64,000 bases of DNA. It comes from Flagellimonas sp. CMM7 (lineage in GTDB: Bacteria > Bacteroidota > Bacteroidia > Flavobacteriales > Flavobacteriaceae). The DNA is taken from contig NZ_CP090003.1 of NCBI RefSeq assembly GCF_021390195.1, forward strand, positions 4,299,501-4,363,500, in the 5' to 3' direction. The notes under the pieces were generated by a model that did no database searches, was not told where the DNA came from, and worked only from the letters and a program-made list of their open reading frames with translations. Below are positions 22,093 to 54,523 of the stretch, one piece after another. Positions within the stretch are counted from its first letter, which is position 1. Every line of letters begins with the position of its first letter. The position numbers and the translations under genes are program-made.

Positions 22093-24846
22093 ATGAACCG
22101 TATTAAACCTTGGATAATCCCAATCTTTTTGTTGTCTCTGTTATCTTGTAATAACAAATCGAACAAAGCTTCAAGCAATGATTTTTATGCCTATCATACC
22201 AGCTTAAAAAATTCTGATAAGGCTCATGAGCGCTATGAGGATCTAGTTGTAAAGCTAGGTATAGGTCAATTAGAATTTAGAATTGATAATGCTTATGCTC
22301 CAATATGGAGAGTGGGCGATAAAACCTATGTTATAGAAGATTTATACCCCAAGCGTGAAAAGGATGTTAAATCTAGATATACATACGTTAGATTACTAGA
22401 AGAATCTGATGACCAGATTGTAGTTCATTACAGGCATATCCCAGTGCTTTCTGGTATTTTTGAGAGTATTGATGAAGACCCACTTTACAAAGGTGGGATT
22501 ACCAATGTAGTGCACGAAGTCTTTACAATTAAGAAAGATTACTCTGTTATTAGAGAGGTAAAGGATGCCACGGGCACAAGATATGAAGATTGGATACACC
22601 CAGATTTTGGATCTACGCAAAAAATTCAATTGACCGCCAATGGTGTTGAGCACAGTAATTTAAGTGAAGGAAAGGCTGCACCTATTTATCCCCGTAAAGC
22701 TTTTGAAGGGAATCCTGTAATTGACCAAAACTTAGAAAATACAGTATTATCATGGAATTTTGATGATGGTATGAAACCACATGAAGATACTATTACAGAA
22801 TCTGTTTCTGGAGCATCTTCTTATATTGATGGGGTTTCTACCCACTATACTAAAGGAATTTCTGGAACAGCTTTAGCTTTTGATGGATATTATACGTCCG
22901 TGTCTTTAACCGCCGGCAAAACTCCTGAAATAAGTCAATCTTTTACCATAACTTCTTGGGTGGCTCCTGATGCCTATCCCTATAATAACGCTCCTATAAT
23001 TCATCAATCCAAAGACTGGGGCAATGAAGGTTTTTATTTTGGGCTAAACCCTTATGGTCATATTATATTCAAAGCTAATGGAGTAGAAACCAAATCCAAG
23101 TCCATAATTGATTTTGGAAAATGGTCATTTGTGTCGGTATCGGTTAATAACAATAAAATTGCATTGTCAATTAATGGAAAGGTTGAAGCTACCAAAACGC
23201 TTAATAATCCTGTTAACTTTATAAATGGTCCAATTCAAATTGGTATGAATAACATATTAGACAGAGGTTCGGACTTCGTGAGAACTAATGCTGAAAATAT
23301 AGATTATTATATTGGTTTTCAAGGTTTAATTGATGAAATACAAGTTCATAACAATGCTTTAAACGAAGCCTCGTTGGCTGATTTATACAACCAAACAAAA
23401 CCAACTGACTTTACCTCAAATCTTCCATTAAGCACTTTACCTGGTGAAAGTGAAACTGGTAAATTTGGAGCATACTATGCCAACTTAACCGTTAGTAACG
23501 CCTTATGGGATAATTTATGGAGAAATGTGGAAAACCCAGATATAGCTGTTGAGTTTGACCAAGTTAAAGGATCTGTTAAATTCTGGCGTGGTACCAACTA
23601 TGCTTCTAACTGGATTAGCGATAACAACATTTGGATGGCTGACCAAAGTACCGAAACTTGGGGACCACATGGGTGTTCTGAGCATATGGCTGATAAACAG
23701 AATCGCCAAAGTTTTGCAAGAATCCTTGAAAATAGCCCCGCTAGAGCAGTTATTCATTGGAAATACCCTTGTGTAGATGTTGGTTATATTAATAATAATG
23801 ATGAAACCAACTGGTCTGATGAATATTATTATATATACCCTGATGGTACTGCCGTTAGAAAAGTAAACTTTAATGGTAGAGGCTTGCCAGAGAATGAAGA
23901 TGGAGAAGATGCCTTCGCTATTGAAGAAGAAGAGGATGAGGAAGCTGAACTTTCTGAATTCTCAATTGCAACGATGGAATGGGGAGAAATGATGGGTGCT
24001 TTTATGGATAAATATTACCATCCTGAAAATGATACTTGGACCGAAGAAAATGTAGGTGCTAGTGGACCAGGTTTTCAAGACATACAAATTTTGGTTACAC
24101 CAGGGGTAAAAGCACTTGATCAAGTAGGGCTAAATGCCATGGATGTGGCCAATTTGAACGGCGATGTCCAACAATTAACGTGGGAGTTGCCGAACAAGTC
24201 GCCTTTTGTACAAATTCATGATGCTTCTATTGAATTAGTTAAAACAAAATCAGAATACAAAACATTCCAAGTTTTCCAGGGCGGGTACATCACGCCTTGG
24301 GGAGAAGCTGAAAATTCTGCATATACCGATGACCCGTTTGCTGGCCCATGGAACCACTGGCCTGCAAACTTATTACCATCTGATGGACGTTATGCTATCG
24401 GTAACGATCGTATAGGTCACTTTGCTATTGGAGCTAATGATTTCTTGCCTGCCGTTGGCGCCATGTCTCTGCATGGTATGACTAATGAGAACATAGAATC
24501 ACTAATCCCATTGGCACGTTCATGGAAATTACCTCCTGCAATAGAAAATGTTTCAGGAGCTGCTTCTGTAACCTATTCAAAAGAACAAAAAGCATTTATG
24601 GTTGAGGCTTCTGAAGACAATATTAGCTTTGAAATAAAAGCTTCTAAAGATCAACCAATGGTAAATCCTGCTTTTGTGATATCTAATTGGGATGGTAACA
24701 TAAACTTAAGTATTAATGGAACATTTGTAAATGGGGACAATATAAAAACAGGTATAGAACGTGATACAAAAGGCAACAAATGTTTAGTGGTTTGGATGAA
24801 ACACCAAGCCAACGAGAATACTACCGTAAGCATATCTAAAGTGTAG
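22093..24846 (+). CDS. PUL lipoprotein, LamG domain flanked by two copies of an uncharacterised WNHWPVA-type module
   Basis: 917 residues from the ATG at 22093, which gives a lipoprotein signal ending LLSLLSCNN; an upstream ATG at 22051 would bury the signal. Layout: a degenerate N-terminal half-module (about 30-180, YEDLVVKLGIGQ, IVVHYRHIP), a LamG/concanavalin-like domain (about 210-440, TITSWVAPDAYPYNNAPI, LIDEIQVHNNALNEASL), then the full module (about 455-917). Module motifs are FGAYYANL, VKFWRGTNY, GCSEHMADKQNRQSFARI, SPARAVIHWKYP, YYYIYPDGTAVRK and WNHWPANLLPSDGRYAIG. An acidic low-complexity insert (IEEEEDEEAELSE) interrupts the module near residue 620. Three paralogues occur in the window. 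Secreted polysaccharide binding or cleavage is inferred; no characterised family was recognised. Confidence 0.85.
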   Translation: MNRIKPWIIPIFLLSLLSCNNKSNKASSNDFYAYHTSLKNSDKAHERYEDLVVKLGIGQLEFRIDNAYAPIWRVGDKTYVIEDLYPKREKDVKSRYTYVRLLEESDDQIVVHYRHIPVLSGIFESIDEDPLYKGGITNVVHEVFTIKKDYSVIREVKDATGTRYEDWIHPDFGSTQKIQLTANGVEHSNLSEGKAAPIYPRKAFEGNPVIDQNLENTVLSWNFDDGMKPHEDTITESVSGASSYIDGVSTHYTKGISGTALAFDGYYTSVSLTAGKTPEISQSFTITSWVAPDAYPYNNAPIIHQSKDWGNEGFYFGLNPYGHIIFKANGVETKSKSIIDFGKWSFVSVSVNNNKIALSINGKVEATKTLNNPVNFINGPIQIGMNNILDRGSDFVRTNAENIDYYIGFQGLIDEIQVHNNALNEASLADLYNQTKPTDFTSNLPLSTLPGESETGKFGAYYANLTVSNALWDNLWRNVENPDIAVEFDQVKGSVKFWRGTNYASNWISDNNIWMADQSTETWGPHGCSEHMADKQNRQSFARILENSPARAVIHWKYPCVDVGYINNNDETNWSDEYYYIYPDGTAVRKVNFNGRGLPENEDGEDAFAIEEEEDEEAELSEFSIATMEWGEMMGAFMDKYYHPENDTWTEENVGASGPGFQDIQILVTPGVKALDQVGLNAMDVANLNGDVQQLTWELPNKSPFVQIHDASIELVKTKSEYKTFQVFQGGYITPWGEAENSAYTDDPFAGPWNHWPANLLPSDGRYAIGNDRIGHFAIGANDFLPAVGAMSLHGMTNENIESLIPLARSWKLPPAIENVSGAASVTYSKEQKAFMVEASEDNISFEIKASKDQPMVNPAFVISNWDGNINLSINGTFVNGDNIKTGIERDTKGNKCLVVWMKHQANENTTVSISKV

Positions 24847-24905
24847 TATACTTTTGCTAAAGGTTAGCATTAAGAGATGATCTTGGTATAAACCACAAAA
24901 ACTAT

Positions 24906-27677
24906 ATGGACATGAGAAGATTAAGTCTGGTAGTAAATATTTGTTTTATTACCACTTTGTTAATTAGTTGTGAATCAGATAGAAATAAAGAAATAGTCCT
25001 CGGAGAGTTTGGTGCATTTTATACCAAGATTAATTCTAATGAACCTTTTGAAGCTTTTTCTAGGGTTGGCAATTACGCCGATATTGTGGTTGACCTTGGG
25101 GATGGGCAATCGTCTTTTGTCTTTTGGAGAGGTAGCAGTTATCTCCCCTATTTAGAAACACCTCAGGGTCGATTTTATGTAGATGAAGTTATTGAGCGTT
25201 CTGGAGATGGCACTGAACAAATGCCAGATAAGGCTAATACTTATTCTAGAATAAAATTGGTAAAAAATACCGACGACGAAATCATTGTACATTGGAGGTA
25301 TTTACCAAAATTCGCGGGTACAAATCCACATACAGGCGTATCTCCCCTAAATTTTGTTGATGAGTATTTTAATATCTATCCTAATAGTAAAGTTACAAGA
25401 ACCATTAAATCTGGTACAGAAAAAGTTGCAGACTGGAGAAGCAACAAATCTCTAAAAAAACAGTCCTTTGAGCTTACTAGTTCTGGTATTGCTAATTCTG
25501 TGCTCGAGGATGTTGAGACCAAACCTAGTACAAACAACACTCATGTTGCAACTATTATAGACAAATCACCTGTGAGGCCTAAATTATGGTTAAGATTTGA
25601 TGAAGGTGAAAATTATTCAACAAAAGAAGAAAGTGCCTCACAAAAAGAGATGCCTATTATTGGAGATGCCTTGTGGCGAACTGGGGTTTCTGGCACATCA
25701 CTACAGTTTGATGGCTATAGAAACGAATTAAAAGTTTCTGCACAAGACGCCCCTGCAATAAACAATCAAATTACTCTAGAAGGCTGGGTAGCACTAGCTG
25801 CATATCCATGGAACGATGTGCCATTAATTCAACAAGTAGATGATAATCCGGAAACGGCACTAATGGTTTTTGAAGGAGATACCATTGTAAAAACTAAAGA
25901 AGTTTTTGACCAGTTCGAAGCTGAAGAGCGTGACTTTGAGGTTATTCTAAAGGAAGAAAACGATAAAGGCTATTTCTTAGGCATAGATGCCTATGGCAAG
26001 CCTAAATTTAAATTACGTATAAATAACAAGACAGAAGAACTAATTGCCGATAATGCATTTGTTGAAAGATACCAATGGCATCAACTTACAGGTACATATG
26101 ATGGCGATAACGGGCTTATGAGTATTTATGTAAATGGTAAACTGACTGAACAAAAAAAGGTGAGCCCTGGAAAGATTATCACATCTTCAAACGATATACG
26201 AATTGGTAGAGGTAAGGATAGAAGGCCAACAAGAACCGTTAGAATGTCTACTTACTTTTCAGACACCTATTGCTTGGATGGTCTCATTGATGAAATTAAA
26301 ATTTACGATATAGCACTCTCAGCTTCACAGGTAGCTGCTACATATCAAAATTATAGTAAAGGGGGTGATGCTTTGGATACTGTAAACATGGATAAAAGGG
26401 TATTACCTGATGGAAAAAACTCAAGTGAATTTGGAGCCTATTATTCTAATCTGGCATTTCATGATGTTTATGATAATTTTTGGCGCTTTAGCGACCATAC
26501 TGATGTTGTTGTGGAGTTTGATGAAATGCCTACCAAATTTGTTTTTTGGAAAGGCACCGGCTATATTCCTATGTTGGTTAACGAATCTGGACAATGGTAC
26601 AGCAATGAGTTTAATGAAACGTGGAATCGTTCTGGTGGCATTGGTTGCCAAGAACCTATGTCTGATAAAACCATATATAGTAACCATGTAAGGATCATAG
26701 AAAACACCCCTGCCAGAACCGTAGTGCATTGGAGATATCCATTATGGGATGTATTCCATTATGTAGCTAACTACAATGAAGATACTGGTTGGGGAGATTG
26801 GAGTGATTGGTACTATTATATATACCCAGACGGTGTTGCAGTTAAAAGTATGACTGTTTGGACCAACGGTATTAGAGACCATGAATTTCAAGAGTCTATG
26901 GCAATTTTTGGTCCAGATCAACACCCCGAAGATATTATACATACCAAAGAAGCACTTTCAATGTATAATTTAAAAGGAGATACAGCTACTTATAATTGGA
27001 TTGGCGGACCTCCAGAGAATGTAGAGAAACCAGATAATAAATCCATTCAATATATCAACTATACTGGAGAATATAAGCCGGTAACCATTGGTGAATTTAT
27101 TGATTCGAATGTTTATGGAGGCGAATTAACCGAATACTCGGTATTCCCATCATGGAATCACTGGCCTGTAGCGCAAATGGCTTCAGATGGTCGTAATTCT
27201 ACGTTTTCAGACAGAACAGCACATAGTTCATTAACACATCTATTCATGCCAATATACAAAGAAGATAAAAAAGGTTCTGTACCTAGTTATCAACAATTAT
27301 TAATGGAAGGCATGATGAATTTAAATTCGGAAGACCTTGTACTGTTAGCTAATTCCTGGCTAAACGCTCCTCAAATATCTGACGTTGAAGGAGGCACAGG
27401 AAAATATGACCCAGCTCAAAGAGCCTATGTTATAGAAGCTAACCCAGAGGGAACCATCAAATTTAGTGTTAATGCATCCGCAGAAAACCCTACTAAAAAC
27501 TTAGCTATTGTTGTAAAGCACTGGGGCAACAGAGGTCAAGCTAAAGCACAATACAACAACAAATCCGTTACACCAAGACAAGGTACTTTTAGAGATACCG
27601 ATGGCACCAAAACTTTAGTTATTTGGATATCTGAAAACTCAAAAGAAAAAATATCCATAACCTTGAACCCAGAATAA
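24906..27677 (+). CDS. PUL lipoprotein, LamG domain flanked by two copies of the WNHWPVA-type module
   Basis: 923 residues with a lipoprotein signal (ITTLLISCESD). The N-terminal module copy (about 35-185) is well preserved: FGAFYTKIN, FVFWRGSSYLPYL, MPDKANTYSRIKL, IIVHWRYLPKF. It is followed by a LamG domain (about 230-490, with a long acidic insert around EAEERDFEVILKEENDKG) and the full C-terminal module (about 510-923). That module shows FGAYYSNL, FVFWKGTGYIPML, CQEPMSDKTIYSNHVRI, TVVHWRYPLWDV, GWGDWSDWYYYIYPDG and SWNHWPVAQMASDGR. It is 59 bases behind the first paralogue and probably in the same transcript, although a TACTTTTG at 24849 could be a separate -7 box. Its closest relative by layout is the preceding gene, suggesting tandem duplication. 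Function unknown. Confidence 0.85.
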   Translation: MDMRRLSLVVNICFITTLLISCESDRNKEIVLGEFGAFYTKINSNEPFEAFSRVGNYADIVVDLGDGQSSFVFWRGSSYLPYLETPQGRFYVDEVIERSGDGTEQMPDKANTYSRIKLVKNTDDEIIVHWRYLPKFAGTNPHTGVSPLNFVDEYFNIYPNSKVTRTIKSGTEKVADWRSNKSLKKQSFELTSSGIANSVLEDVETKPSTNNTHVATIIDKSPVRPKLWLRFDEGENYSTKEESASQKEMPIIGDALWRTGVSGTSLQFDGYRNELKVSAQDAPAINNQITLEGWVALAAYPWNDVPLIQQVDDNPETALMVFEGDTIVKTKEVFDQFEAEERDFEVILKEENDKGYFLGIDAYGKPKFKLRINNKTEELIADNAFVERYQWHQLTGTYDGDNGLMSIYVNGKLTEQKKVSPGKIITSSNDIRIGRGKDRRPTRTVRMSTYFSDTYCLDGLIDEIKIYDIALSASQVAATYQNYSKGGDALDTVNMDKRVLPDGKNSSEFGAYYSNLAFHDVYDNFWRFSDHTDVVVEFDEMPTKFVFWKGTGYIPMLVNESGQWYSNEFNETWNRSGGIGCQEPMSDKTIYSNHVRIIENTPARTVVHWRYPLWDVFHYVANYNEDTGWGDWSDWYYYIYPDGVAVKSMTVWTNGIRDHEFQESMAIFGPDQHPEDIIHTKEALSMYNLKGDTATYNWIGGPPENVEKPDNKSIQYINYTGEYKPVTIGEFIDSNVYGGELTEYSVFPSWNHWPVAQMASDGRNSTFSDRTAHSSLTHLFMPIYKEDKKGSVPSYQQLLMEGMMNLNSEDLVLLANSWLNAPQISDVEGGTGKYDPAQRAYVIEANPEGTIKFSVNASAENPTKNLAIVVKHWGNRGQAKAQYNNKSVTPRQGTFRDTDGTKTLVIWISENSKEKISITLNPE

Positions 27678-33244: not shown

Positions 33245-34228
33245 CTAATAAACACCATGTATATGTTCGTGTACTTCATTCACGTAAAACGTTTCTAGTG
33301 TTTTCATAAGGTCATTGGGCAGTGGGTCTAACGTGCTAGCCGTAGCATTTCCAATAACTTGTGATGTAGAACTCGCTCCGGGTATTACAGTAGAGACGGC
33401 TTTATGATCCAAAATCCAGCGTAATGCCATTTGTGCCATAGTTAGCTCTGGAGGGCACAATGTTTTAAGGTGTTCTGAAAGTTCTAACCCTTTATCAAAA
33501 AATAGCCCCGAAAATGTCTCTCCTGCATTAAAAAACTTTCCACCTTGATTAAAGTTTCTATGGTCGTTCTCTGCAAACTTGGTATTTTTATTGAATTTCC
33601 CCGTTAATAAGCCACTTGCCAAAGGTAATCTTACAATAATTCCAACACCTTTAGATTGAGCTTGTGGTAATAATTGTTTGGTAAGTTTTTGCCTAAAGAT
33701 ATTATAAATGACTTGTAGTGATTGAAGCCCGTCTTGTTCCATGCATATTAATGCCTCTTCAATACTCTCAACACTAGCGCCAAAGTGAGCAATCTTATCT
33801 TCACGCTGTAATCTCCGCAACCAATCAAAAATGGCACCATCTTCAAGTACATCTTGAGGCACACAATGTAACTGAAGTAAATCTAAGGTTTTTACCCCTA
33901 AACGTTCTGCTGATGCCTCTATAGATTCTCTTAATATGGCCTCATTAAAATTATTACCAACTTTTACAGATTTTCCAAACTTAGTAGCCACTTTAATATC
34001 TGCATCTGTTGTTTTTAGGAAAGCACCTATTAAAGACTCACTTTGCCCTTCACCATATTCATCGGCGGTATCAAAAAAACGAATACCACTATCTACAGCG
34101 GCCTGAAGAATTTCAAAGGCTCTATCATTATTCATATCATCTCCCCAGTTCTTTCCCCCTAATTGCCAACAACCTAGGCCAACTTCAGTAACATTAAACC
34201 CGTTCTTTCCTAATATTCTACTTTTCAT
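33245..34228 (-). CDS. aldo/keto reductase
   Basis: 327 residues, NADPH-dependent barrel. The catalytic set is present: Asp and Tyr in FFDTADEYGEGQSES, Lys in VATKFGKS, and His in LLQLHCVPQ. The C-terminal cofactor site includes STVIPGASSTSQVIGN. Starts MKSRILGKNGFNVTEVGLG. No signal peptide, so it is cytosolic, unlike the neighbouring oxidoreductase. In this setting it could reduce an aldose or a keto-sugar intermediate; substrate unknown. Confidence 0.92.
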   Translation of the reverse strand: MKSRILGKNGFNVTEVGLGCWQLGGKNWGDDMNNDRAFEILQAAVDSGIRFFDTADEYGEGQSESLIGAFLKTTDADIKVATKFGKSVKVGNNFNEAILRESIEASAERLGVKTLDLLQLHCVPQDVLEDGAIFDWLRRLQREDKIAHFGASVESIEEALICMEQDGLQSLQVIYNIFRQKLTKQLLPQAQSKGVGIIVRLPLASGLLTGKFNKNTKFAENDHRNFNQGGKFFNAGETFSGLFFDKGLELSEHLKTLCPPELTMAQMALRWILDHKAVSTVIPGASSTSQVIGNATASTLDPLPNDLMKTLETFYVNEVHEHIHGVY

Positions 34229-41876: not shown

Positions 41877-43232
41877 TTATCTTACTTCGTAACGGTGCAT
41901 TTTGGGCTGATTATTATTATAAATTAAATGGACCATTTCTTTGGATTTGCTCTCAAGCTCTTCAACTACCTTGTAGAATTCTTTCTCTAAGTATTTTTCC
42001 AGACCCATTGTTTTAAATTTTAAATAACGTTGGTAATCTTCATTATCCTCTAAATCTTCATCCTCATCTTCATCCCATCCTACTTCTAAGGTCTTACGCA
42101 GTAACCATTCATCCCTTATCATTACTATAAGCTCCTCATTACGTGCTTTGTTAATTTCTGCCACCCTCAAAGCCTGTTGATATTGAGGCGTCTTCTCATT
42201 ACTTTGTAGTTCTACACCTTGAGCAAATTCTAAATGCGAATAAGTGCCAACTACAGTTCCATCTATCAGCAACTCGTAATCACCATATTCCAAACCAACA
42301 ATTTGTACTAGCTCTTTCCCCATTTTAGTACCTGCTTGTGTTAGCTTGAAGGCCATTTGGGCATCATTAGGCACTACCCATGGCAATGAATTTGCCTTAA
42401 AATTGAATGATATGTTCTTCTCTGTAGAATTACTTATTAATCCATTATCTGCTGAATATATCCAAGTATCGTCTCTTTTATCAATGACAATTTTTGAAAC
42501 CAAGGAATTAGCTTCTATCCCCTTTAAAAAGGAAAGTGCCATTATAAGTTGCCCATCACTTTCAGGATGTACGGCATCAGGAACAAAGGTGAAATCTGGA
42601 CTATCCTTGCGAGCTACGCGTGTATAATGTGTTAAATCTCCATGAAAATCGGCGTAACCATAGCCCTTTAAAGTTGCAACCTCCGCACACCATGCTCCAA
42701 AATATGCCAGTACGGCATCATAATGTAAATCTTTTACATCCTCTTCATCCACCCAATTTTCTCCAATCAAACCTTGCTGTGTGTCATATATTGTTGGTGT
42801 CAGGAGAATGGTCTTAACATTGGCCTTATCCAGCTTATTGGTCAATGTAGTCATATCCCTCTTGTAAGCATTGAAAATAGGATGCTCCCATTTAACATAT
42901 TGACCATCGTTCATTCCAATTAAAATACTTACATATTTTGGCTTATGTTTTAATACATCTTCATCTAACCTAGTAAGCACGTGTTGGGCAAAATCGCCAG
43001 ATACTCCCGCATTAATCAGATTAAGTTTTTTATTTGGGTATCTAGTGTAAAAATAGTCTTCTACATATTGGGTGTAAGCACATTGATGCGTAATGCTATT
43101 ACCAATAAAAACGAATGTATCGCCATCTTCCAAGGATACTTTGCTCAAAGATTTTTTAAATTGCTGTGCCCATAAATAATTAGAAAATATAAGTAAAAAC
43201 AGACCTATTACACGTGTATATTTATTATTCAT
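41877..43232 (-). CDS. secreted SGNH/GDSL-type esterase
   Basis: 451 residues with a signal peptide (about 1-22, NYLWAQ). The SGNH blocks are complete: Ser in FVFIGNSITHQC, Gly in INAGVSGDFA, Asn in ILIGMNDGQY, and Asp/His in FVPDAVHPESDGQL. The C-terminal 200 residues form an extra domain with a beta-rich part (VGLEYGDYELLIDGTVVG) and an acidic stretch (DEDEDEDLEDNEDY). Such proteins in PULs usually remove acetyl or similar esters from polysaccharides. It lies between the GH95-like and xylulokinase genes. Confidence 0.88.
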   Translation of the reverse strand: MNNKYTRVIGLFLLIFSNYLWAQQFKKSLSKVSLEDGDTFVFIGNSITHQCAYTQYVEDYFYTRYPNKKLNLINAGVSGDFAQHVLTRLDEDVLKHKPKYVSILIGMNDGQYVKWEHPIFNAYKRDMTTLTNKLDKANVKTILLTPTIYDTQQGLIGENWVDEEDVKDLHYDAVLAYFGAWCAEVATLKGYGYADFHGDLTHYTRVARKDSPDFTFVPDAVHPESDGQLIMALSFLKGIEANSLVSKIVIDKRDDTWIYSADNGLISNSTEKNISFNFKANSLPWVVPNDAQMAFKLTQAGTKMGKELVQIVGLEYGDYELLIDGTVVGTYSHLEFAQGVELQSNEKTPQYQQALRVAEINKARNEELIVMIRDEWLLRKTLEVGWDEDEDEDLEDNEDYQRYLKFKTMGLEKYLEKEFYKVVEELESKSKEMVHLIYNNNQPKMHRYEVR

Positions 43233-43449: not shown

Positions 43450-45849
43450 CTAGATAAAATTTACTTCTTGAGTCCTTCCTTTTTTAACTTGAATTGGAAT
43501 TACTTGATCTCTAAATTTAATCTTAGTAGCTCGTCCGCTTTTTGAAGTTATCAAAACCTTAGACGGTTTGCCATCTTTCCATTCCATATCTACTACAAAG
43601 CCTCCCCTTGCAGGTAAACCTTTTACTTTTCCATTAGGCCAGTTTTTAGGTAATGCCGGTAACAATTCTATTCCATCTAATGTGGATTGAAGTAGCATAT
43701 AAGAAACTACTGCTGGTAGACCGCCACTTATATCCATATTGAATATCTCCTGAGGGTCATGATAAGACACAAATGCTGTAGTCCAGTAAGAGTTTACTAG
43801 CCAATTAACACATTCTTCTGCCAATACTGCATTTTTGAGATGTGCGGAAGCCATTCCCAATTGAACTAAGCCAAAAGCCATAATACCACCATCATTTTCC
43901 CTTCTGGAAAACATTCTAGCTTCTATAGCTTTTCTCGCAGCCTCCAATAATCTTTCATTATTCTTAAAATCAGGGTCAACACCGTCATAAAGCGGGTATA
44001 AATGCGATACATGTCTGTGATCATTATTATTTTCATAACTATCCCAAATCCACTCTTTTAGTTCACCTTTTTTATCAATGGCATATTCTGGTAATGATTT
44101 CAATATATTTTCATATTCAGAAATGCGCTCTTCTGCAATATAGCCTTGCTTTGCAAGAGCAATCAAATTTCTTAACAACTGTTTCATAGCGGCAACATCC
44201 ATAGTTGCGTTAATTGCCACAGGGTGCTTACCAAGAGGCCCTACTTCTGGAGAGTAAGATGGAATAAACATATATTCCCCTTTTCTTGTCTTATATAAAA
44301 TTTGACTTAAAAAGTCGTATGCTTCTAACATAAATGGCAGTGCTCTTTCCTTAAGGTATTGTTCATCCATTGTATATAACCATCTATCATAATGAAAATG
44401 GGCAGCCCAGGCCGTACCGGCGTACCAATATAAATGGGGGAAAAATTCCGCAAAGTGATAGGCACTTCCAAACTCACTTACTCGTGAGGGCACATAAATA
44501 CCCTCCAACCCATACATAGCACTGGCATTATATTTAAAATCATCCATCATACTATCAAGCATGTTTAAATATGCGTCAGTTAATTCCTGATAGTTCGTAT
44601 TGAGTCCCAAAGCAATCGCGGAGGGCACATTACCATTTAGTGTAAAATCACCAGACCATGCCGGTCTCCATGTGCCTCCCCAAATACCTTGTAGCGAGGG
44701 TGGGGTAGCCCCAGTACTGCTTATAACATTATAGCGTCCAGCTTTAACAGATTGAACTATTAAATCTTTATTGGTGTTTTCAAAACTAGATGAAGCCAAC
44801 AATTCATTTGATGTTAAACTTGTGCTCTCATTCTCTCCTAACTCAAAACTAAACCTGTTAAACATTTCACCATGAATCTTTGCGTGTGGTGCCAACAGTT
44901 TATCGTACGACGGCTCTAAAACATCGAGCTCATTCTTCAAAGTTTCTATTTGATTACCTTCTGATTTATCGTAACTCAATTTTATGGTAGAGAGCACTAA
45001 AATTTCATCGGCGTCTATGACTTCTAATGCATTATCCCTTAATCGTATTGAACCTTTTTTATTTATAATCTTCGTAAGAACAGTATAGGACTTTAAAGAT
45101 CCCTGCCATTCTTTTTTAAAGGTCGTTTGGTAAGACAAATAATTCTTCTCAGCCGAAATATTTAAATTAGTATAATCTGTTGGATCAAAAACTTCTTCAT
45201 CTTCTTCTGCTTCCAACTGTGGAAGCTGATTAAGCAAGAACCTATAATTGAGTTTACCTCCGGTAGGGCTCGTAATTTGAAATACGGCAACATTATCCTT
45301 TCTAGAAACGAATGCTTTTCGTGAAATAATATCCTTTTCGGTACCATAATTTACGGTGACTTCTCCAGTTTCATAATTTACCGTACGAGCGTATTGGTCA
45401 TTTTTAATGGGTTGTATCGCTTGAAACTCCAACTGACATGCAGGAATATGAGGGTTCGTCCATACAAACTCGTCTTCAATTCCTATTTGTTTGCCTTCTT
45501 CAACAGCAATCATCGAAGCTTCCTTTTCCTTACCATTAAATATCAAAGTTCTGATTTCATCTAACCGGCTACTTAAATTGGGCGCTTTTAAAGGCTCGTA
45601 TTCGGGCATAAACAATTTCTCATGACTGAGTACAATTCTATCCTTGTGCACGTGGCCCGGAATTAACATACCTACAGTACCATTACCACTAATAGCAGAT
45701 TCCTCCCACTTGGAGGCTGGTTCCCTACTCAGGAAACCGTTCTGTGGAGATAGCTCAAATAGCTCCACTAAATCAACTTTGCCAACGTTTGATTTGCAGC
45801 AGCAAATACTGACAGCCAGTATTAAGCAAATTATATGTTGCTTATTCAT
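43450..45849 (-). CDS. GH95-like glycoside hydrolase lipoprotein
   Basis: 799 residues, lipoprotein signal (VSICCCKSN). The order fits GH95: the N-terminal beta domain starting with GNGTVGMLIPGHVHKDRIVL, the (alpha/alpha)6 barrel with SLQGIWGGTWRPAWSGDFTLNGN holding the Asn-x-Asn pair, YSPEVGPLG with the presumed acid Glu, HVSHLYPLYDG, an Asp in IFNMDISGG, and the C-terminal LLPALPKNWPNGKVKGLPARGGF. GH95 enzymes are alpha-1,2-L-fucosidases or alpha-L-galactosidases. Several positions differ (NGN instead of NIN, and the region after the HxSHLY motif), so the specificity may be new. An acidic insert (LEAEEDEEVFD) lies near residue 215. Confidence 0.85.
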   Translation of the reverse strand: MNKQHIICLILAVSICCCKSNVGKVDLVELFELSPQNGFLSREPASKWEESAISGNGTVGMLIPGHVHKDRIVLSHEKLFMPEYEPLKAPNLSSRLDEIRTLIFNGKEKEASMIAVEEGKQIGIEDEFVWTNPHIPACQLEFQAIQPIKNDQYARTVNYETGEVTVNYGTEKDIISRKAFVSRKDNVAVFQITSPTGGKLNYRFLLNQLPQLEAEEDEEVFDPTDYTNLNISAEKNYLSYQTTFKKEWQGSLKSYTVLTKIINKKGSIRLRDNALEVIDADEILVLSTIKLSYDKSEGNQIETLKNELDVLEPSYDKLLAPHAKIHGEMFNRFSFELGENESTSLTSNELLASSSFENTNKDLIVQSVKAGRYNVISSTGATPPSLQGIWGGTWRPAWSGDFTLNGNVPSAIALGLNTNYQELTDAYLNMLDSMMDDFKYNASAMYGLEGIYVPSRVSEFGSAYHFAEFFPHLYWYAGTAWAAHFHYDRWLYTMDEQYLKERALPFMLEAYDFLSQILYKTRKGEYMFIPSYSPEVGPLGKHPVAINATMDVAAMKQLLRNLIALAKQGYIAEERISEYENILKSLPEYAIDKKGELKEWIWDSYENNNDHRHVSHLYPLYDGVDPDFKNNERLLEAARKAIEARMFSRRENDGGIMAFGLVQLGMASAHLKNAVLAEECVNWLVNSYWTTAFVSYHDPQEIFNMDISGGLPAVVSYMLLQSTLDGIELLPALPKNWPNGKVKGLPARGGFVVDMEWKDGKPSKVLITSKSGRATKIKFRDQVIPIQVKKGRTQEVNFI

Positions 45850-46046: not shown

Positions 46047-47585
46047 TTAATTTGCTTGATTGGGCAATAGGTTAGCATTCAAGTCCAATTCTCTTTGAGG
46101 AATTGGAGCTACTTCATCTTGACCATCAGTAAAAGATGCGAAATTCTCATCCTCAACCTGCTGTGCGTTATTGTATTTACCATATCGCTTTAGGTCAAAA
46201 AATCTCCAGTTTTCTCCCGATAATTCCAAAATACGTTCTTGCTCTATACGGTCTCTAAAAGCACTTTGACTTCCAGTAAAGGCCGGATATGCAGTTGCTA
46301 CCATAGGTCTTCCTGACCTAGCTCTTACCTGATCAACATATTGCACTGCTTGTGCCGTATTTCCTGCTGCATTTAAAGCTTCCGCATACATTAAAAGAAT
46401 ATCGGCATACCTAATAACAACATAATCCGTACCCCCATCGGCAAGAATAGCCATAAATGTTTGACTACCTGAAACTGGGTCAACATTATTCTCTACATTC
46501 TCTTGCTCAGAGTATTTGTAAAACCCTGTGACCAAATCCTGATTTGGAGCTCCATCAGCCCAGACCTGACCTGAAAGTCCATAGTATGTAAGCGAGGAAC
46601 CAGGATATATAATGGTGTAATCCATTCTTGAGTCCTTACTTCCCGCAGCTGTTTCCTCTCTTTGAAAGGCGTTAAGTATCATATTAGAACACTGTATATC
46701 TCCAAAAGCTCCGCCACCTTCCGAAGGACTAAAAACTTGATGACGTCTATGTGAATCCGTTTCATTAGTTGGTCCATTTTCAATAAAGTTTACAACAAAC
46801 AATGCTTCCGGATTAACCGCCCCCGTTTCTCTAAAATTATCATTAAATACAGGTAATAGGCTGTATTGATTTGAATCTATGATAGCTTTTAGCAAAGGTT
46901 CTGCTTCGGCATATCGTTGTTGTTGAAAATAGGTCTTAGCTAAAAGCGCTTGTGCAGCTCCTTTGGTTACTTTTCCATATTGGTTTTCTGGCCAACTTAG
47001 GGGGAGCTTTTGTATAGCTGATAGCAGCATACTTTCCATCAAAGCGTAAATCTGCCCGTTTTCTGCAGAACTCGGTCTATCAGATGGTTGTTGCACTCTA
47101 TCAACGTATGCTACATTTTCTCCAAACAACCCAACCAAGTTAAAATATCCTAATGCAATTAAAAATTCTGCCTGTCCAGCAATCTCTGGTTTACCAAATC
47201 TGGGTTCATTCTCCAATACCTGGTAAGCCCTACTTATTAAAGCATAGTTATTCACCCAGTGCGGGCCTCCAAATTCATCGCTGTCTGATAGTGTAAACCT
47301 TACCAATGCGTTAAACTCAAAGGGATGCTCATTAGTTCCCTCATCAGAAAGTCCTGAATATAATATATGGAAATTCTGTCCATATGTTTCCCAGAATTGC
47401 AAAACATCATATGCTGCAATTATTCCTTGTTCCAAATCTTGTTCAGTTTGCCAGAAAGCAGATTCAGACAATTCATTTGGATTGATTTGGTCTAACTCGG
47501 AGCAGCCAACCAAACCCAATAACAAGGAAAGCAAACAAATACTTTTTAATTTTCTTTTAAATATATTTTTCATCTTATTTTTCAT
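46047..47585 (-). CDS. susD: SusD/RagB-family surface glycan-binding lipoprotein
   Basis: 512 residues. Lipoprotein signal (LLLGLVGCSELDQ), then the SusD N-terminus (SAFWQTEQDLEQGIIAAYD), TPR-like helices, and the C-terminal RagB/SusD region (YADILLMYAEALNAAGN, YVDQVRARSGRP, ERILELSGENWRFFDLKRYGK). It forms the lid of the SusC transporter, whose gene is 11 bases upstream. Normal length. The product's glycan is unknown. Confidence 0.95.
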   Translation of the reverse strand: MKNKMKNIFKRKLKSICLLSLLLGLVGCSELDQINPNELSESAFWQTEQDLEQGIIAAYDVLQFWETYGQNFHILYSGLSDEGTNEHPFEFNALVRFTLSDSDEFGGPHWVNNYALISRAYQVLENEPRFGKPEIAGQAEFLIALGYFNLVGLFGENVAYVDRVQQPSDRPSSAENGQIYALMESMLLSAIQKLPLSWPENQYGKVTKGAAQALLAKTYFQQQRYAEAEPLLKAIIDSNQYSLLPVFNDNFRETGAVNPEALFVVNFIENGPTNETDSHRRHQVFSPSEGGGAFGDIQCSNMILNAFQREETAAGSKDSRMDYTIIYPGSSLTYYGLSGQVWADGAPNQDLVTGFYKYSEQENVENNVDPVSGSQTFMAILADGGTDYVVIRYADILLMYAEALNAAGNTAQAVQYVDQVRARSGRPMVATAYPAFTGSQSAFRDRIEQERILELSGENWRFFDLKRYGKYNNAQQVEDENFASFTDGQDEVAPIPQRELDLNANLLPNQAN

Positions 47586-47596
47586 CTTTAATCTTT

Positions 47597-50500
47597 TTAT
47601 AAAGAAACATTTAACCCTAAAGAAATAGATCTTACAACTGGATAGCCCAGATCTGCCTCTCCTGCTGTAAAGAAATCGCCTTCAAATTCTGGTTCCAGAC
47701 TTGTAAAATCTGTCCAAGTAAATAGGTTCTGTCCTGAAACAAATACCCTTAAATTATCCACATCATCCCATGGAATGGTGTATCCTATTTGCAAATTTCT
47801 TAGCTTCACGAAACTACCATTTTCCACATATAAAGTACTGGCGGTATAATTACCATGTTCAGCTGAAGTTTGAGGTCTAGGATAAGTTCCTACACCGTTT
47901 ATATAAGGATCATAATTTGCTGGATAATTAGATGATATATCAGAATGTAAGCCCAAAAGAGGCAAATTGAGTACATCTCTGCCCGCTAAACCAGATAAAA
48001 ATGCGGTGAAATCCAAGTTCTTATAGGTAGCAGAAAAGTTAAAGCCAAACTGCACCCTGGGCAAGGTATTACCCACTGCTACCCTATCTTGAGCATCAAT
48101 TCTATTATCTCCATTAACATCTCTATATTTTGCGTCTCCAACTATAGGAGGAAAGTCTCCTACTTGAAAACCTGAGGGTAAATTATCAATTTCTTGTTGT
48201 GTGTACAACCCTTGATAATCTAAAACAAAGAGTCTTGCTCTTGGCTGCCCTACACTGGTTATAGAATTACTTACAATGCCTGTAAATCCTTGTGGAACTT
48301 TTTTTACTTGTGTTTCATTACCTGAAGCATTTGCACTTATTTGAAATTTAAAGTCTCCTTCTGTCTTTCTATACGTTAGGTTAGCTTCCCATCCCTTACG
48401 CTCATTAGTCACGGCATTTAATGTAACTGTTGTGGCTATTGTTGGGCCTGCTGTTCCAGGAACCTCAACATCAGCTAAAACATCTTCTATATCATCAACA
48501 TAATAGTTTCCTTCAAATGCCAATTTTCCATTGAATAATTCAAGGTCAATACCAAAATTATATCCTCTTACCTTGGCCCAAGAAATATCAGGATTGGCTA
48601 AAAGGTTTGATCTTGTAGCACCAGTTACTGGATCACCTGTTGGCCCAAGATTATAATTTGGTCCACCAGCCCCTCTAACAATAGTACTGGTAGCAAAATA
48701 AGGGCTGCTGCCATCACCTGCTTCATTATATCCTACCTCACCATATGCAGCTCTTAATTTCAATCTGGAAATGGCCTCTATATTAAAAAAAGATTCATTG
48801 GATACATTCCATCCTAAATCTAAAGAAGGAAATACATCATCTCTATTGTCGCCAAGAAAAGAAGAGAAAGCATCTCTACGAACAGACGCTTTTAACAAAT
48901 AGCGATCATCATAGTCATAAGTAAATCTTGAAAGTAATGATTGGGTAACCACTGTACCTCTTGAACTACTAATTGCAGGAGCACCTCCACCATTTGGGGT
49001 GGCTGCTACAAGTTCAAAAAGTCCAGATTCAAAAGCGTTGAGCGATTCATCATAAGCAACTCCAGAAGAAAAATCTGTTGTCTCTAAATCGTTATAAGCC
49101 CCCATTAAAGAAAATGTATGCCTTCCGAGTGTTTTTTCAAATGACAAACGATGTTCAAGATAATAATTTCTTGCCTCATTATGATTAACCGATAAACTTG
49201 AACCTATTAAAGTTGATCGGCGCAGTTGGCTTCTTTTGTTAAAGCTTTTTTCATAGCTGGATGATTGCTCCAATCCAAAACTAAAATGGTAATTCAATCC
49301 ATCAATAATCTCAAAATCTGCATAGATGTTACCTAGTATATTATTGGTTTCTGTGGTTGTTTTGTATAGAGCAGCAAAACCTATTGGATTAACCACAAAG
49401 CTTAAATTATTTACATCCCCATGACCATATCCACTAATTTTGGTCGGATCCAAAACTGGTACAACTGGTAAAGCATCTAGGGCTGAAGCGACGACATTCC
49501 CAGAAAACGTAGCGTTATCTTCACTTGCCCCTCCGCTAAGCCTTACTCTATTTAAAGCCAAGTTTTGTCCCACTTTGAGGCGATCTTTGATAATCTCATA
49601 AGAAGTATTAATTCTAATCCCGCTTCTATCAAACTTAGGTCCAGGAACAGTTCCTTCCTGGTAGGTATGATTTACCCCCATTAAAGCCGTAAAACGGTCT
49701 CCTCCACCAGATACGGTCACATTAGCATCTTGAAGTAAGGCGGTTTTGTATACTTCGTCCTGCCAATCGGTATCAATTCCAGGCAAATTAAAAGCATGTG
49801 CCAACTGCAATCCACTTGCGTAGGGAGAATCGTAAGCTGACCTTACAATTCTAGCCCATTGTTCTGCATTAGCCATATCTAATCTAGTGCCTATTTGTTG
49901 AAATCCTGTAGTCACGTTAGCACTTACACTAAGTCTTCCTGGCTTACCTTGCTTTGTGGTGATAACAATAACTCCATTTGCTGCACGCGACCCATAAATG
50001 GCAGCAGAAGAAGCATCCTTTAATATCTGTATATTTTCAACATCACTGGGATTGATTGTTGGTGCCTCGTTGAGGATTACACCATCCACAACATATAAAG
50101 GGTCATTATTTCCAGCAAAAATAGAACCACGAATCCTAATATCTCCAATATCCCCTGGCAAACCATTGCCGGTAACGGCAACCCCAGCCGTTCTGCCTTG
50201 GAGTCTATCCGTAATATTGGTATACTGCATCTTTTCGGTCTCTCCTACGTCAATAATAGAAACAGCCCCCGTTAGAGAACTCTTCTTTTGAGAACCATAA
50301 CCAACCACCACCACTTGCTCCAGCACATTTTGATCAGGTTGCATATTCACCTCGAGATTGGTTCTTCCTGCTAAATCAATTTCTTGAGCAATATACCCAA
50401 CAAAACTAACCACCAGCGAAGCATTGGAGTCAGATACCTCAATACTAAAACGCCCATCAAAATCGGCAGCAACCCCATTGGTAGTAGATTTCTCAATTAC

Positions 50501-50638
50501 TGTAGCACCAGAAAGTGGTAGACCCGTCTCATCATAGATTGTTCCCGTAATTGTAGCCTGAGCAATCACACTAGATTGAATTCCCAAAAAAAGACCTAGA
50601 ACCCAAAGGGCTTTACATATATTATTTTTATATTTCAT
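47597..50638 (-). CDS. susC: SusC/RagA-family TonB-linked outer-membrane transporter
   Basis: 1013 residues. Signal peptide ending SSVIAQ, then a carboxypeptidase-regulatory-like domain (TITGTIYDETGLPLSGATVI, VSFVGYIAQEI). The TonB box region follows with EQVVVVGYGSQKKSSLTGAV, then the plug (QGRTAGVAVTGNGLPGDIGD, NGVIVITTKQG) and a 22-strand barrel ending SLGLNVSL. It imports oligosaccharides with SusD. Full length, no anomaly. It lies between the glycan-binding lipoprotein and SusD in one transcript. Confidence 0.96.
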   Translation of the reverse strand: MKYKNNICKALWVLGLFLGIQSSVIAQATITGTIYDETGLPLSGATVIEKSTTNGVAADFDGRFSIEVSDSNASLVVSFVGYIAQEIDLAGRTNLEVNMQPDQNVLEQVVVVGYGSQKKSSLTGAVSIIDVGETEKMQYTNITDRLQGRTAGVAVTGNGLPGDIGDIRIRGSIFAGNNDPLYVVDGVILNEAPTINPSDVENIQILKDASSAAIYGSRAANGVIVITTKQGKPGRLSVSANVTTGFQQIGTRLDMANAEQWARIVRSAYDSPYASGLQLAHAFNLPGIDTDWQDEVYKTALLQDANVTVSGGGDRFTALMGVNHTYQEGTVPGPKFDRSGIRINTSYEIIKDRLKVGQNLALNRVRLSGGASEDNATFSGNVVASALDALPVVPVLDPTKISGYGHGDVNNLSFVVNPIGFAALYKTTTETNNILGNIYADFEIIDGLNYHFSFGLEQSSSYEKSFNKRSQLRRSTLIGSSLSVNHNEARNYYLEHRLSFEKTLGRHTFSLMGAYNDLETTDFSSGVAYDESLNAFESGLFELVAATPNGGGAPAISSSRGTVVTQSLLSRFTYDYDDRYLLKASVRRDAFSSFLGDNRDDVFPSLDLGWNVSNESFFNIEAISRLKLRAAYGEVGYNEAGDGSSPYFATSTIVRGAGGPNYNLGPTGDPVTGATRSNLLANPDISWAKVRGYNFGIDLELFNGKLAFEGNYYVDDIEDVLADVEVPGTAGPTIATTVTLNAVTNERKGWEANLTYRKTEGDFKFQISANASGNETQVKKVPQGFTGIVSNSITSVGQPRARLFVLDYQGLYTQQEIDNLPSGFQVGDFPPIVGDAKYRDVNGDNRIDAQDRVAVGNTLPRVQFGFNFSATYKNLDFTAFLSGLAGRDVLNLPLLGLHSDISSNYPANYDPYINGVGTYPRPQTSAEHGNYTASTLYVENGSFVKLRNLQIGYTIPWDDVDNLRVFVSGQNLFTWTDFTSLEPEFEGDFFTAGEADLGYPVVRSISLGLNVSL

Positions 50639-50667
50639 TTCTTATATTTCTTTAATTGTAAATTTGA

Positions 50668-51558
50668 TTAACCCTTGATACCTAATTTCAAATCATCTAT
50701 CGAGAAAGAAACCCCTGCTTCTTCAGAATTAAATCCAATACCTGCAAAATTTTCTAAATCGGCTTCAATTCCTAAATCCTCCAGCAACACTTGTAAATCT
50801 TCTACTTGAACAGAGTTGAAGTTCGGGTCGTTTAAAATAATTTCCTGTCCAAGATCAGCAAGGGTAATACTAAATTCCTCTCCTGCCACAAAGAAAATGT
50901 TCACCAAGGCAGGATCACTTACATTAGCATATTTAAATTCAAACTGCGCCACGATTTCAGCTACATTTAAAGGCACCGTAAATATTTCAAATCCTGCCCA
51001 TTCCCCAAGAACAGGACCTACCACGGCAGCTCCTGAAATAATTGACACATTAGAAGGGTCACCAGAAAAGATAAACTCTACGTTATCAAAAACACCAGTC
51101 GTCTGAGTCGCAAATTCACCGTCAGGAACATCAAAATTAATGTCTAACACAAAATCTATGTCAACGCCTGGCTCAACCTCAACATTAACAGCTGTTGCCA
51201 CCTCGTTCCCTGCAGAATCCACAACAACCACATCCACTACTGTTGTCCCAATTCCAACTGATTGCAAAACTAAAGTAGAGCCACTTATACCAGCTTCGAC
51301 AACATTGACATCCCTTGATGTTGCCGTAAATGTTAAAATATCATTTTCCTGATCATTAACATTAACAGCCAAATCAAATTCTTTTGGCAAGCTAATTTCC
51401 TTTAAAAGTTTATCACCAATCTCCGACACTCTTGGCGGTTGATTAACAATTAGCACATCCGGAAACTCAACCTCAAGAGGATTTTCACAGGATGAAAAAC
51501 CGAAAAGGAAAGATATGACAAGAGCCATCCAAATCATTTTCTTATTGTTTTTTTCCAT
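50668..51558 (-). CDS. PUL surface glycan-binding lipoprotein candidate
   Basis: 296 residues with a lipoprotein signal (FLFGFSSCENPLE). An N-terminal Ig/cadherin-like domain (about 40-130: VNVNDQENDILTFTATS, TTVVDVVVVDSAGN) precedes a beta-rich, very acidic C-terminal domain (about 140-296). It is first in the SusCD operon, ahead of SusC, an unusual place for a SusE/F-type protein, which normally follows SusD. It is not recognised at family level; a glycan-binding role is inferred from position, lipidation and the beta-sandwich pattern. Confidence 0.72.
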   Translation of the reverse strand: MEKNNKKMIWMALVISFLFGFSSCENPLEVEFPDVLIVNQPPRVSEIGDKLLKEISLPKEFDLAVNVNDQENDILTFTATSRDVNVVEAGISGSTLVLQSVGIGTTVVDVVVVDSAGNEVATAVNVEVEPGVDIDFVLDINFDVPDGEFATQTTGVFDNVEFIFSGDPSNVSIISGAAVVGPVLGEWAGFEIFTVPLNVAEIVAQFEFKYANVSDPALVNIFFVAGEEFSITLADLGQEIILNDPNFNSVQVEDLQVLLEDLGIEADLENFAGIGFNSEEAGVSFSIDDLKLGIKG

Positions 51559-51594
51559 AATCTTAATTTAGTTAGTTATTTATTGAACATCTCG

Positions 51595-51631
51595 CAAATA
51601 TAGGTATATTAATTTACTTTTTAAACATTAG
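51595..51631 (-). promoter_or_regulatory. promoter and shared motif of the SusCD operon
   Basis: On minus, TATATTTG (complement of 51595-51602) is a perfect -7 box about 35 bases before the first gene. The 21-base motif shared with the LamG promoter (CTAATGTTTA, two A/T, AAGTAA, purine, TT) covers 51611-51631. Its GTTTA lies about where the -33 element is expected. Confidence 0.65.
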
Positions 51632-52337
51632 TAAGTAAGATTTGTTTAAAAAAATCTGAGGAACCAAGCCTTGAAGCTTATAAAACACTGTTACAATAAC
51701 AAAAAACTCATCTAATCATCAAAAATTATTTTGGCAATAGCCGTGGCATGGATATACTAGGAGAAGTATTAGTTAGTAGTTATTCCCATGTCATTATTTA
51801 TAAACAAAATATACCTGAATAACACTCCTATTAGTATTGGAATTGGACAATATGTTCAATATGCTTAATGGTTTTCAATCTTCCAATTAGCACCTAAAGC
51901 TGGTTGACATTTTTATTCTGGATATTGAAGTAATTATTCAAAACAAATACTTACTTTTACACTGTTAATAAGTATATACAACCACACAAAATAATATTGA
52001 CAAAAAGCAATCAAAAACAACTTTTATTAGAAAAGCGAACCCTAAAAACATATTTAATCCCAATCTCTTTTAATGAGCGCTATATATTCTTTGGCAAACC
52101 AAAAATAAAAGATTAAGGGTTGTGAAATTTAGACCAGGATTTGTCTGGGCATAATGGAGGTTACTATTTGTATCCAAACGAAATTGAATCTCTTCTATGT
52201 TTTAGAAATGTAAAAGCATTTGACGGGAAACTTATACAAGTCATAAGGATTAAAAGCAAGAATGTCAAAACAAAACTTTTTAAGCATGCATTTTTTTGAA
52301 AGTAGATTCGCAAATAATTTAAATAAGAACAATAAAA
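51632..52337. other. 706-base divergent intergenic region with one stop-free fragment
   Basis: AT-rich control region between the SusCD operon and a LamG gene. A plus-strand frame is open from 52126 to a stop at 52297-52299 (57 codons) and reads like protein: SGHNGGYYLYPNEIESLLCF, then RNVKAFDGKLIQVIRIKSKN. It has no ATG and no recognised relative, and may be the tail of a deleted gene. The rest shows no gene. Confidence 0.35.
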
Positions 52338-54523
52338 ATGACAACTAAAATGAAAAAAGAACTGATTTGGAGCTTATTACTCCTTTTAACGGGTACGTAC
52401 ATGAAGGCCCAAGAACCAATACAGCATTTTAATTTTGACGATATTAAAGTAGAACGTCAAAAAGCTAATTTAGAACGAGGGGAAACCTATGTCCCAAAAG
52501 AAGTTTTTGCCTATGTTAAAGAAGCTAGTGGCAAAGAACACAGTTTAAACGGAAAATATTACAAGAGTGTGCCAGGCGTAAAGGGAAATGCCATTTTACT
52601 GGATGGCTACACGTCCCATATAGTCATTGAAGAAGAATTTGATGAAGGAATAGATGATTTTGCAAGAGACCAATTAAAGGCGTTTACCATAAAATCTTGG
52701 GTGGCCTTGGGGCCTACCCAAAGAATTTCTGTCCAATTTACAGCCACAGAAGACCCATTTCAGATGGCGCTCATCAAGGTTACAGTTTAGAGCTAGATGA
52801 TTGGGGAAGACCTGTTTTAATGCTGGGCACCTACGAAGGAAAAACAGAAGCGCTCTTGAGTGATGAAAAAATTGAACTTAATAAATGGACCCATGTAGTA
52901 GCCACCTATTCACCAGAAAAAGGAATGGTTCTTTACCTAAATGGAAAGCAAGTTGCCCACAAAACTTTTAAAGGAACCTTCTCTATCGTTCGCCACCATG
53001 AAGAGGTACCTAAATTAATAGGGAAAAGTAGAGAAACACAAAGGCCAACGGGTACCATCCGACCAGAGGGAACGGAAAAATCCCTGACCTATCTAGATGC
53101 CATTTTAGATGAATTAGAATTGTATGATGTAGCTCTGGATGCAAAATCAATCGCCTCTGTGTACCAAAAAGAATCAAAGTCACTTAGCACACCTGCTTTA
53201 CCAAAAAGAAAATTCCCTTCGGGCCCAAAATCTCCAGGTATCTTCAGAGCAGTAAATACTACTTTAAAATATTACCCATCTTGGGATGCGCCATGGGCTG
53301 TAGATAAACATGCCGACGTGGTAGTACAATTTGATGAATCTGACTGTAAATTTGTATTTTGGAGAGGTACCAGTTATATCCCAAGCTGGGTTAGTGAAAA
53401 TGGCATTTTCTTTAACAATGGTTTTAATGAGGGATGGAATGCTCATGGTAGCTGTGAACCTATGTCTGACAAAAAGACAAAATACTCCAGTGTGAAAATT
53501 GTTGAAAGTTCACCGGCAAGGGTTGTGGTACAATGGCGCTATGGCTTGGTAGATGTGGTTGGTAACTTTGCTTTTGAAGACCCGCAAACTGGATGGGGAG
53601 ACTGGACTAACGAAACCTATACTATTTACCCAGATATGAGTGCCGTACGTGAAGATGTATTACTAAGCAATGCTCCTAATGCAGCTCATGAGTGGCAGGA
53701 AAGTATGGTTGTAATGGAACCTGAGCAAAGACCAGAAAGTGTTTTAGAGTATGGTGCTTTAACAGTATCTAACATTGATGGAGAAAGCACTACCTATTCT
53801 TGGGAACATAATGCTCCCAAACTATGGCCAGAATATCCCAAAAACATAACTAACCAAATCGTAAATACTAAAGCAAAATACAAGCCTTTCTCATCATTAA
53901 GACCCCAAGATATCGCAGGAGGCATTGATGGTGGCCAACCCCAGAGCATGGATTTATATGCAGGGGAACAAAGAAGGCATATTAGTGTATTCCCTTGGTG
54001 GAACCACTGGCCGGTGGCACCAAGACCTACAGATGGAAGATACGCTATGGTAGCAGACCGTGGCTCCCATGCCTCTTTATCACATTATTTCTGGAATGCT
54101 TACAAAACAACAGACCGTTCTATGAGCAAGATTATGCTTTGTGGCATGACTAATGATAACATAGAGTCTGTTGTAAACTTAAACAAAAGTTGGTCAAATC
54201 CGGCTAAAATTAGTTTAGGCAACAATACTTCAAAAGCATATTACAAACCAGAAGAAAAAGCCTACATCATAGCACTAAACAAACAGGTCGAATATTTAGA
54301 CATAACATTAGCGGGTACTGAGTCCTCCCCTGTTGTAAACCCCGCTTTCGTAGTTGAAAATTGGGACCAACGTGACGTGACGTCTCTTACGGTTAATGGA
54401 AAACCGCTAAATGACAAGGATGCCCGCTTTGGGTATAAGGATTCCTTAAATGGTGTAGATCTCATTGTCTGGGTTAGAACAAGCTCAAAGGATTCAGTAG
54501 ACATAAAAATCTCGAGCAAGTAA
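52338..54523 (+). pseudogene. secreted LamG plus WNHWPVA-type module protein, frameshifted
   Basis: Fourth paralogue. The first frame (52338-52790) encodes the signal peptide (LLLLLTGTYMKAQ) and half of the LamG domain; the second (from 52697 to 54523) encodes the rest of LamG and the module. At GGGG (52709-52712), one more G would turn SWVALGPTQRI into SWVALGAYPKNFCPIYS, exactly the sequence pattern of the three intact paralogues (WVAPQAYPWNWCAIY). The repaired protein has about 728 residues. Module motifs: KFVFWRGTSYIPSW, SCEPMSDKKTKYSSVKI, RVVVQWRYGLVDV, GWGDWTNETYTIYPD, PWWNHWPVAPRPTDGRYAM. Either a sequence error in a G run, a real null mutation, or slip-strand switching. Confidence 0.85.

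Follow-up and report, generated by a model that had tools for sequence, protein, structure and literature searches.

Module genes at the locus

The window, i.e., the whole stretch of 64,000 nucleotides analysed here (bases 4299501-4363500 of a single-contig 4.42-Mb genome), contains four genes that each encode a LamG domain (PF13385) and a common module of ~430 residues. PF13385 scored 54-69 bits in all four copies (gathering score 27.6). Pairwise BLASTP between the copies showed 27-37% identity, with best E values per pair of ~1e-64 to ~1e-104, and their resemblance is far beyond chance. These comparisons confirm the four genes with LamG and a shared module that had been proposed from a sequence-only reading of this DNA. 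The six motifs listed in that reading were also present, but with substitutions (e.g., CMEHMSDK, CSEHMADK, CQEPMSDK, and SCEPMSDK). The module copies and their remnants are as follows.

22051-24846 (+): copy 1, lipobox-like signal (by eye); half-module ~22186-22566, LamG 22882-23373, full module 23389-24843
24906-27677 (+): copy 2, lipobox-like signal (by eye); half-module 25002-25424, LamG 25935-26336, full module 26361-27674
34313-36394 (-): copy 3, intact, 693 aa, signal peptide (by eye); LamG 35678-36130, full module 34316-35635
52338-52790 (+): copy 4, N-terminal piece of 150 residues with signal peptide and start of LamG
52697-54523 (+): copy 4, C-terminal piece of 608 residues, in a different frame from the N-terminal piece; rest of LamG 52766-53155, full module 53198-54514
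63044-63391 (-): C-terminal remnant of a fifth module gene (profile positions 574-693)
63402-63440 (-): 39 bp matching (87%) the sulfatase gene of a Seonamhaeicola MAG locus (L110)

Copies 1 and 2 carry an additional N-terminal half-module ahead of LamG, and the frame break of copy 4 sits in a short G run near 52.7 kb. Two further copies lie 8-12.6 kb outside the window (locus L087 of the same genome): the first (866 aa) consists of a half-module, a LamG-like middle part, and a module, and the second (641 aa) is without LamG and has an insertion within the module. Large, related, T9SS-tailed proteins adjoin module genes both in the window (54843-60026, +; also with G8 and InlB-type repeat domains) and outside it (L087:15973-19320, -).

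The remnant of the fifth copy was 58% identical over 110 aa to the C-terminus of the module gene product at L110:1622-3667. In L110, the gene order is a sugar-isomerase-like gene, a GDSL esterase, the module gene, a sulfatase, and a ROK gene. The flanking genes are the same in the window, where they enclose just the C-terminal part of the module gene plus the 39 bp that match the sulfatase. The simplest account is that most of the module gene and the sulfatase gene were deleted in this lineage; the apparent deletion lies at 63377-63469, between the GDSL esterase and ROK genes, when compared with L110:1962-5223. In an Allomuricauda MAG (L113), the ROK, sulfatase, esterase, and isomerase-like genes are present and the module gene is absent. 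A search of the 39 window ORFs with 150 aa or more detected no sulfatase and no known endo-xylanase or lyase. The earlier statement that the PUL has no sulfatase and no evident endo-xylanase thus holds for these ORFs, but the missing sulfatase looks like a deletion. Elsewhere in the genome there are 24 sulfatase matches, and the single GH10 match of the genome is marginal (22.8 bits, cut-off 22.1).

The surrounding PUL

Other genes of the PUL are as follows.

33245-34228 (-): aldo/keto reductase, adjoining copy 3
36440-37510 (-): aldose 1-epimerase
37571-38992 (-): MFS sugar transporter
39223-40341 (-): xylose isomerase, frame-broken near its C-terminus
40344-41822 (-): FGGY kinase, xylulokinase-like
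41877-43232 (-): GDSL esterase
43450-45849 (-): GH95 (alpha-L-fucosidase or alpha-L-galactosidase), candidate exo-partner
46047-47585 (-): SusD-like protein
47597-50638 (-): SusC-like TonB-dependent receptor
50668-51558 (-): small lipoprotein-like protein of the SusCD operon, no Pfam match

The xylose isomerase ORF ends early and its expected C-terminus continues just downstream in another frame; this second frame break of the PUL may be an assembly error or decay. A tyrosine recombinase of the phage-integrase type (18932-20095, +) lies between MnmE and the first genes of the PUL; a mobile island could have its boundary here. SSS symporter, PfkB kinase, Fe-ADH, and Zn-ADH genes are located just to the right of the window.

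GH95 takes in alpha-L-fucosidases and an alpha-L-galactosidase, according to the available text of PMC4491172 and PMC8245568. The window GH95 has Thr at the Thr/His position once proposed to separate galactosidases from fucosidases. We considered this Thr as a marker for L-Fuc vs. L-Gal and dropped it, as the residue does not discriminate the two activities in the available text of PMC8245568.

Library comparison, size, and distribution of the module family

The module region of the four copies matched no Pfam or NCBIfam family; LamG and weak chance matches were the only results. When 74 module sequences were compared with Pfam, no family was matched by more than two members, and the best E value was 0.014, the LamG part of copy 4 aside. 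Copy 3 as a single query retrieved no PDB sequence at E values up to 1. The full-length profile had ten PDB matches, of which nine fell within LamG and the tenth covered residues 258-300 (E = 0.23), and a profile of the module had two unrelated matches only (E ~0.8). Profile comparison (hhalign) of the module with 20 neighbour-gene families (including GH95, GH97, GH2, GH106, GH78, GH29, GH20, sulfatase, aldose epimerase, and SusD) gave probabilities of at most 0.5% in 20/20 cases against 100% for the positive control, with several of the neighbour profiles built from 2-6 sequences only. Thirds of the module showed no relation to each other by hhalign, and a literature search over titles and abstract starts found no published description of the family. 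The suggestion that the module belongs to no recognised family was therefore borne out by the Pfam HMM, NCBIfam, and PDB-sequence searches, which support a new family within these libraries.

With copy 3 as query, 3,176 proteins were found among 8,000 scored, a number that may include LamG-only similarity. A LamG-free relative as query found 2,989 non-redundant proteins among 6,737 candidates, and we take this number as the better estimate of family size. The family of four described earlier stands for the window, but the fifth-copy remnant, the two outside copies, and these 2,989 proteins show it to be far larger. Among the 120 relatives listed for the LamG-free query, 94 had an unbroken full module, and 64 of the 94 were shorter than 530 residues; many family proteins have only ~470 residues (e.g., P0147, a module-only relative of 471 aa with the module at 28-468). 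Other relatives of ~800-815 aa (e.g., P0211, 815 aa) have a full C-terminal module and no LamG; their N-terminal region has no precomputed Pfam domain and looks PA14-like by eye in P0211. A crude test found a hydrophobic N-terminal stretch in 104 of 144 full-module ORFs vs. 0 of 48 cytosolic controls.

A pattern scan with one genome per species gave 335 stretches, 312 of which encode a relative. The best 80 of these 312 were kept as 78 loci, 57 of them at least 10 kb long, with titles that included Bacteroidota, Planctomycetota, Acidobacteria, Aminicenantes, Verrucomicrobia, Deltaproteobacteria, Neomarinimicrobiota, and TA06, among others. Within a Bacteroidota sample, the module was detected in 2/395 genomes (own genome included), which is a lower bound from a fast first look (E <= 1e-20). 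Because a copy from a Sedimentisphaerales MAG is 66% identical to copy 3 and the module is rare in Bacteroidota, spread of the gene by horizontal transfer is suggested. In the 12 genomes behind named loci, which were hand-picked for variety, there were 1 to 38 module matches per genome, with pieces of one gene counted apart. The maximum was found in a Sedimentisphaerales MAG (G402, the genome behind L015), where several of the 38 matches are in tandem.

Genomic neighbourhoods of module genes

Among the 78 loci, sulfatase genes occurred in 20, SSS symporters in 16, Zn-ADH in 12, Fe-ADH in 12, and PfkB in 11. GH95 occurred in 11, GH29 in nine, GH106 in six, and GH78 in four. At least one of these four glycoside hydrolase families adjoins the module in 27/78 loci, and 41/78 have one of them or a sulfatase; the remaining 37 have no listed deoxyhexosidase or sulfatase, in part because contigs are short. 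Family identity was checked for the sulfatase, GH29, GH106, and GH78 neighbours (on representatives) and for the GH95, dehydrogenase, symporter, and kinase neighbours.

Two loci (L030 and L032) have the compact gene order ROK-SSS-PfkB-FeADH-module-ZnADH-GH95, and two others (L028 and L029) have one extra gene ahead of GH95. The SSS, PfkB, Fe-ADH, and Zn-ADH genes are all found in nine loci (L023, L028, L029, L030, L032, L048, L073, L074, and L083). This set recurs beside module genes in several phyla and is possibly an undescribed oxidoreductive sugar pathway. It could provide import of an aldose, its reduction, oxidation of the alditol to a ketose, and phosphorylation. Both dehydrogenases and the kinase have NCBIfam scores well under the curated cut-offs.

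To evaluate the link with GH95, we counted GH95 matches (PF22124) in 13 genomes, three of which are close relatives with the same PUL. Of the 24 matches, eight had a module match no more than 20 kb away (0.97 expected). When the three syntenic relatives were left out, 5/17 were near a module vs. 0.83 expected (binomial 0.001), and when our own genome was left out too, 4/16 vs. 0.81 expected (binomial 0.007). The link between GH95 and the module is real, though few independent cases carry it. Module-linked GH95 was also considered as a divergent type (8/8 below 350 bits vs. 6/16 of the others, Fisher 0.006); this was dropped on values of 0.10 without the three syntenic relatives and 0.23 without our own genome as well.

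Conserved residues and half-modules

Conservation was evaluated from 106 aligned members, six of them from our own genome, and is given in copy 3 numbering. At least 97% conservation was found in 32 of the 417 module columns. Ten of these columns are charged (D294, E332, E341, D345, E357, R362, D400, H521, R532, and D538), compared with two charged columns of 217 at this level for LamG in the same alignment. All ten are located outside region 551-693. All ten are kept in 4/4 window copies, and the LamG-free copy outside the window has Asn at D400. Conserved aromatic residues include F270, W283, F299, F308, W309, W522, W584, and W679. The module has no invariant Ser; C339 is Cys in 92% of the 106 rows and Ser in copy 4 and a few others.

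In 17 half-modules, D345, W367, R368, Y369, E393, and R405 were kept in all and D294 in 94%, vs. 6% of aligned residues for E332, 17% for E341, 18% for R362, and 0% for C339 and W287. The simplest reading is that the half-module retains the fold and has lost the site. E332, E341, R362, H521, R532, and D538 are candidate active-site residues, with E332 and E341 as conservation-based candidates for the acid pair of a glycoside hydrolase. Some of the conserved charged residues may be structural, as D345 and D294 are also kept in half-modules. A half-module used as a query found 39 proteins, many on short contigs, with no named relative among them.

Hydrophobic periodicity and Chou-Fasman averages were helix-like for residues 254-412 and strand-like for 413-693, with overlap between the known controls. 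Mean-field covariation showed hairpin-like pairs at low depth (334 rows, effective 197, 425 columns).

Possible function of the module

We propose, with roughly even confidence, a catalytic role for the module as the core of secreted, glycan-cleaving enzymes that form an unnamed family and are most likely glycoside hydrolases, not lyases. From the shared module, its conservation, the size of the family, the lack of library matches, and the genomic association, we infer catalysis, a hydrolytic mechanism, active-site residues, a substrate, and an order of steps. LamG would be the polysaccharide-binding part, residues ~254-550 would carry the active site, and 551-693 would form an accessory domain. 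Cleavage of the glycan by the module copies would take place on the cell surface or beyond it, followed by import of the fragments through SusCD and removal of terminal alpha-L-fucose or alpha-L-galactose by GH95. The released sugars would be used by the xylose genes and the SSS/PfkB/Fe-ADH/Zn-ADH cassette. The view that the four proteins are leading candidates for the main depolymerising activity therefore stands, as a candidate assignment to which the charged residues, the module-only proteins, and the neighbours point.

It is unlikely, though conceivable, that the module is a non-catalytic glycan-binding domain and that the four surface proteins hold the polysaccharide for SusCD. This would be consistent with the binding-type LamG domain, the lipoprotein-like copies 1 and 2, the many conserved aromatic residues, and the persistence of half-modules that lack the candidate active-site residues. 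However, the ten charged columns and the existence of module-only proteins with no other domain argue against a purely binding role, as do the compact operons of L030 and L032, in which no extracellular glycan enzyme apart from GH95 is recognised beside the module.

Somewhat less probable again is a new polysaccharide lyase family that cleaves glycans containing uronates; here, H521 or a Tyr would serve as the base, and R362 would lie close to the carboxylate. H521 and R362 are invariant and conserved Tyr residues are many. Lyases are often followed by a GH88/GH105 enzyme, and PF07470 (Glyco_hydro_88), which we take to cover both families, is present in 4/13 module-bearing genomes. One of these genomes (G406) carries a GH88-family gene next to its GH95, with a module gene ~20 kb away; this arrangement is as expected of a lyase system and counts against the hydrolase reading. 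However, PF07470 is absent from our own genome and from 8/12 of the others, and no uronate-specific genes were recognised among the 39 window ORFs. The absence of PF07470 is not decisive, since there are lyase pathways that do without GH88/GH105. Of the two readings, a hydrolase agrees better with the deoxyhexosidase neighbours and the xylose genes.

A relation to the PL40 ulvan lyases had also been raised. As here, these are secreted enzymes of marine PULs in the available descriptions. The solved PL40 enzyme Uly1040 (PDB 9VTK) is described as a protein of 856 residues with an (alpha/alpha)6 toroid and a C-terminal beta-sheet domain, and with a site formed by His485/His487, Tyr305, Asp358, Asn245, and Trp246 (PMC12915356, available text). 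By this description, PL40 enzymes differ in architecture from our family: they have ~850 residues, whereas the module is complete in ~440 and forms entire proteins of ~470 aa, such as P0147. In the module, H521 is the single His of the >=97% columns, and these columns include no His-x-His pair. Together with the lack of PF07470 in our own genome, the comparison with the published description does not support kinship with PL40.

Removal of sulfate or acyl substituents, or another non-hydrolase route that leaves the backbone uncut, is improbable: it would suit the many paralogues per genome (up to 38 matches, like sulfatases and esterases) and the sulfatase genes beside the module in 20/78 loci, but known sulfatase and esterase genes nearby already fill those roles, the module has no invariant Ser, and C339 is replaced by Ser in places.

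Comparison with known systems and significance

The closest gene set known to us is the xyloglucan locus of Xanthomonas, which in the available text has TonB-dependent receptors, GH95, an esterase, xylose isomerase, xylulokinase, and an MFS transporter (PMC8245568), i.e., the same kinds of genes as the window PUL. As described there, it cuts with GH74, GH31, and GH35, whereas the window has no known backbone enzyme and has the module in that place. This likeness would not by itself make xyloglucan the substrate here. Laminin_G_3 (PF13385) is found in all four window copies, but it is an accessory N-terminal part only, and the module also occurs without it. By description, the GxGYxYP family is a similar case, in that it was likewise predicted from context as a new class of glycoside hydrolases (PMC4071793, available text).

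Our wider proposal is more tentative than the catalytic assignment, and we give it somewhat less than even weight. In this proposal, the module would found a large new CAZyme family, perhaps with a new fold, of about three thousand non-redundant members in many phyla. On glycans that bear L-fucose, L-galactose, or L-rhamnose and are often sulfated, it would supply the backbone cleavage that is missing beside GH95 and related exo-enzymes. In some lineages, it would share an operon with an undescribed pathway of oxidoreductive sugar use (SSS, PfkB, Fe-ADH, and Zn-ADH).

Degradation is slow for glycans with a high content of fucose, rhamnose, or L-galactose, and a known enzyme for cutting the backbone is often missing from the corresponding gene clusters. 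If our proposal is true, a family of ~3,000 proteins without a Pfam or NCBIfam model would fill this gap. The half-module comparison points to residues for mutation, and the short module-only members should be convenient for expression. Many gene clusters in Planctomycetota, Verrucomicrobiota, Aminicenantes, and Bacteroidota would then become interpretable.
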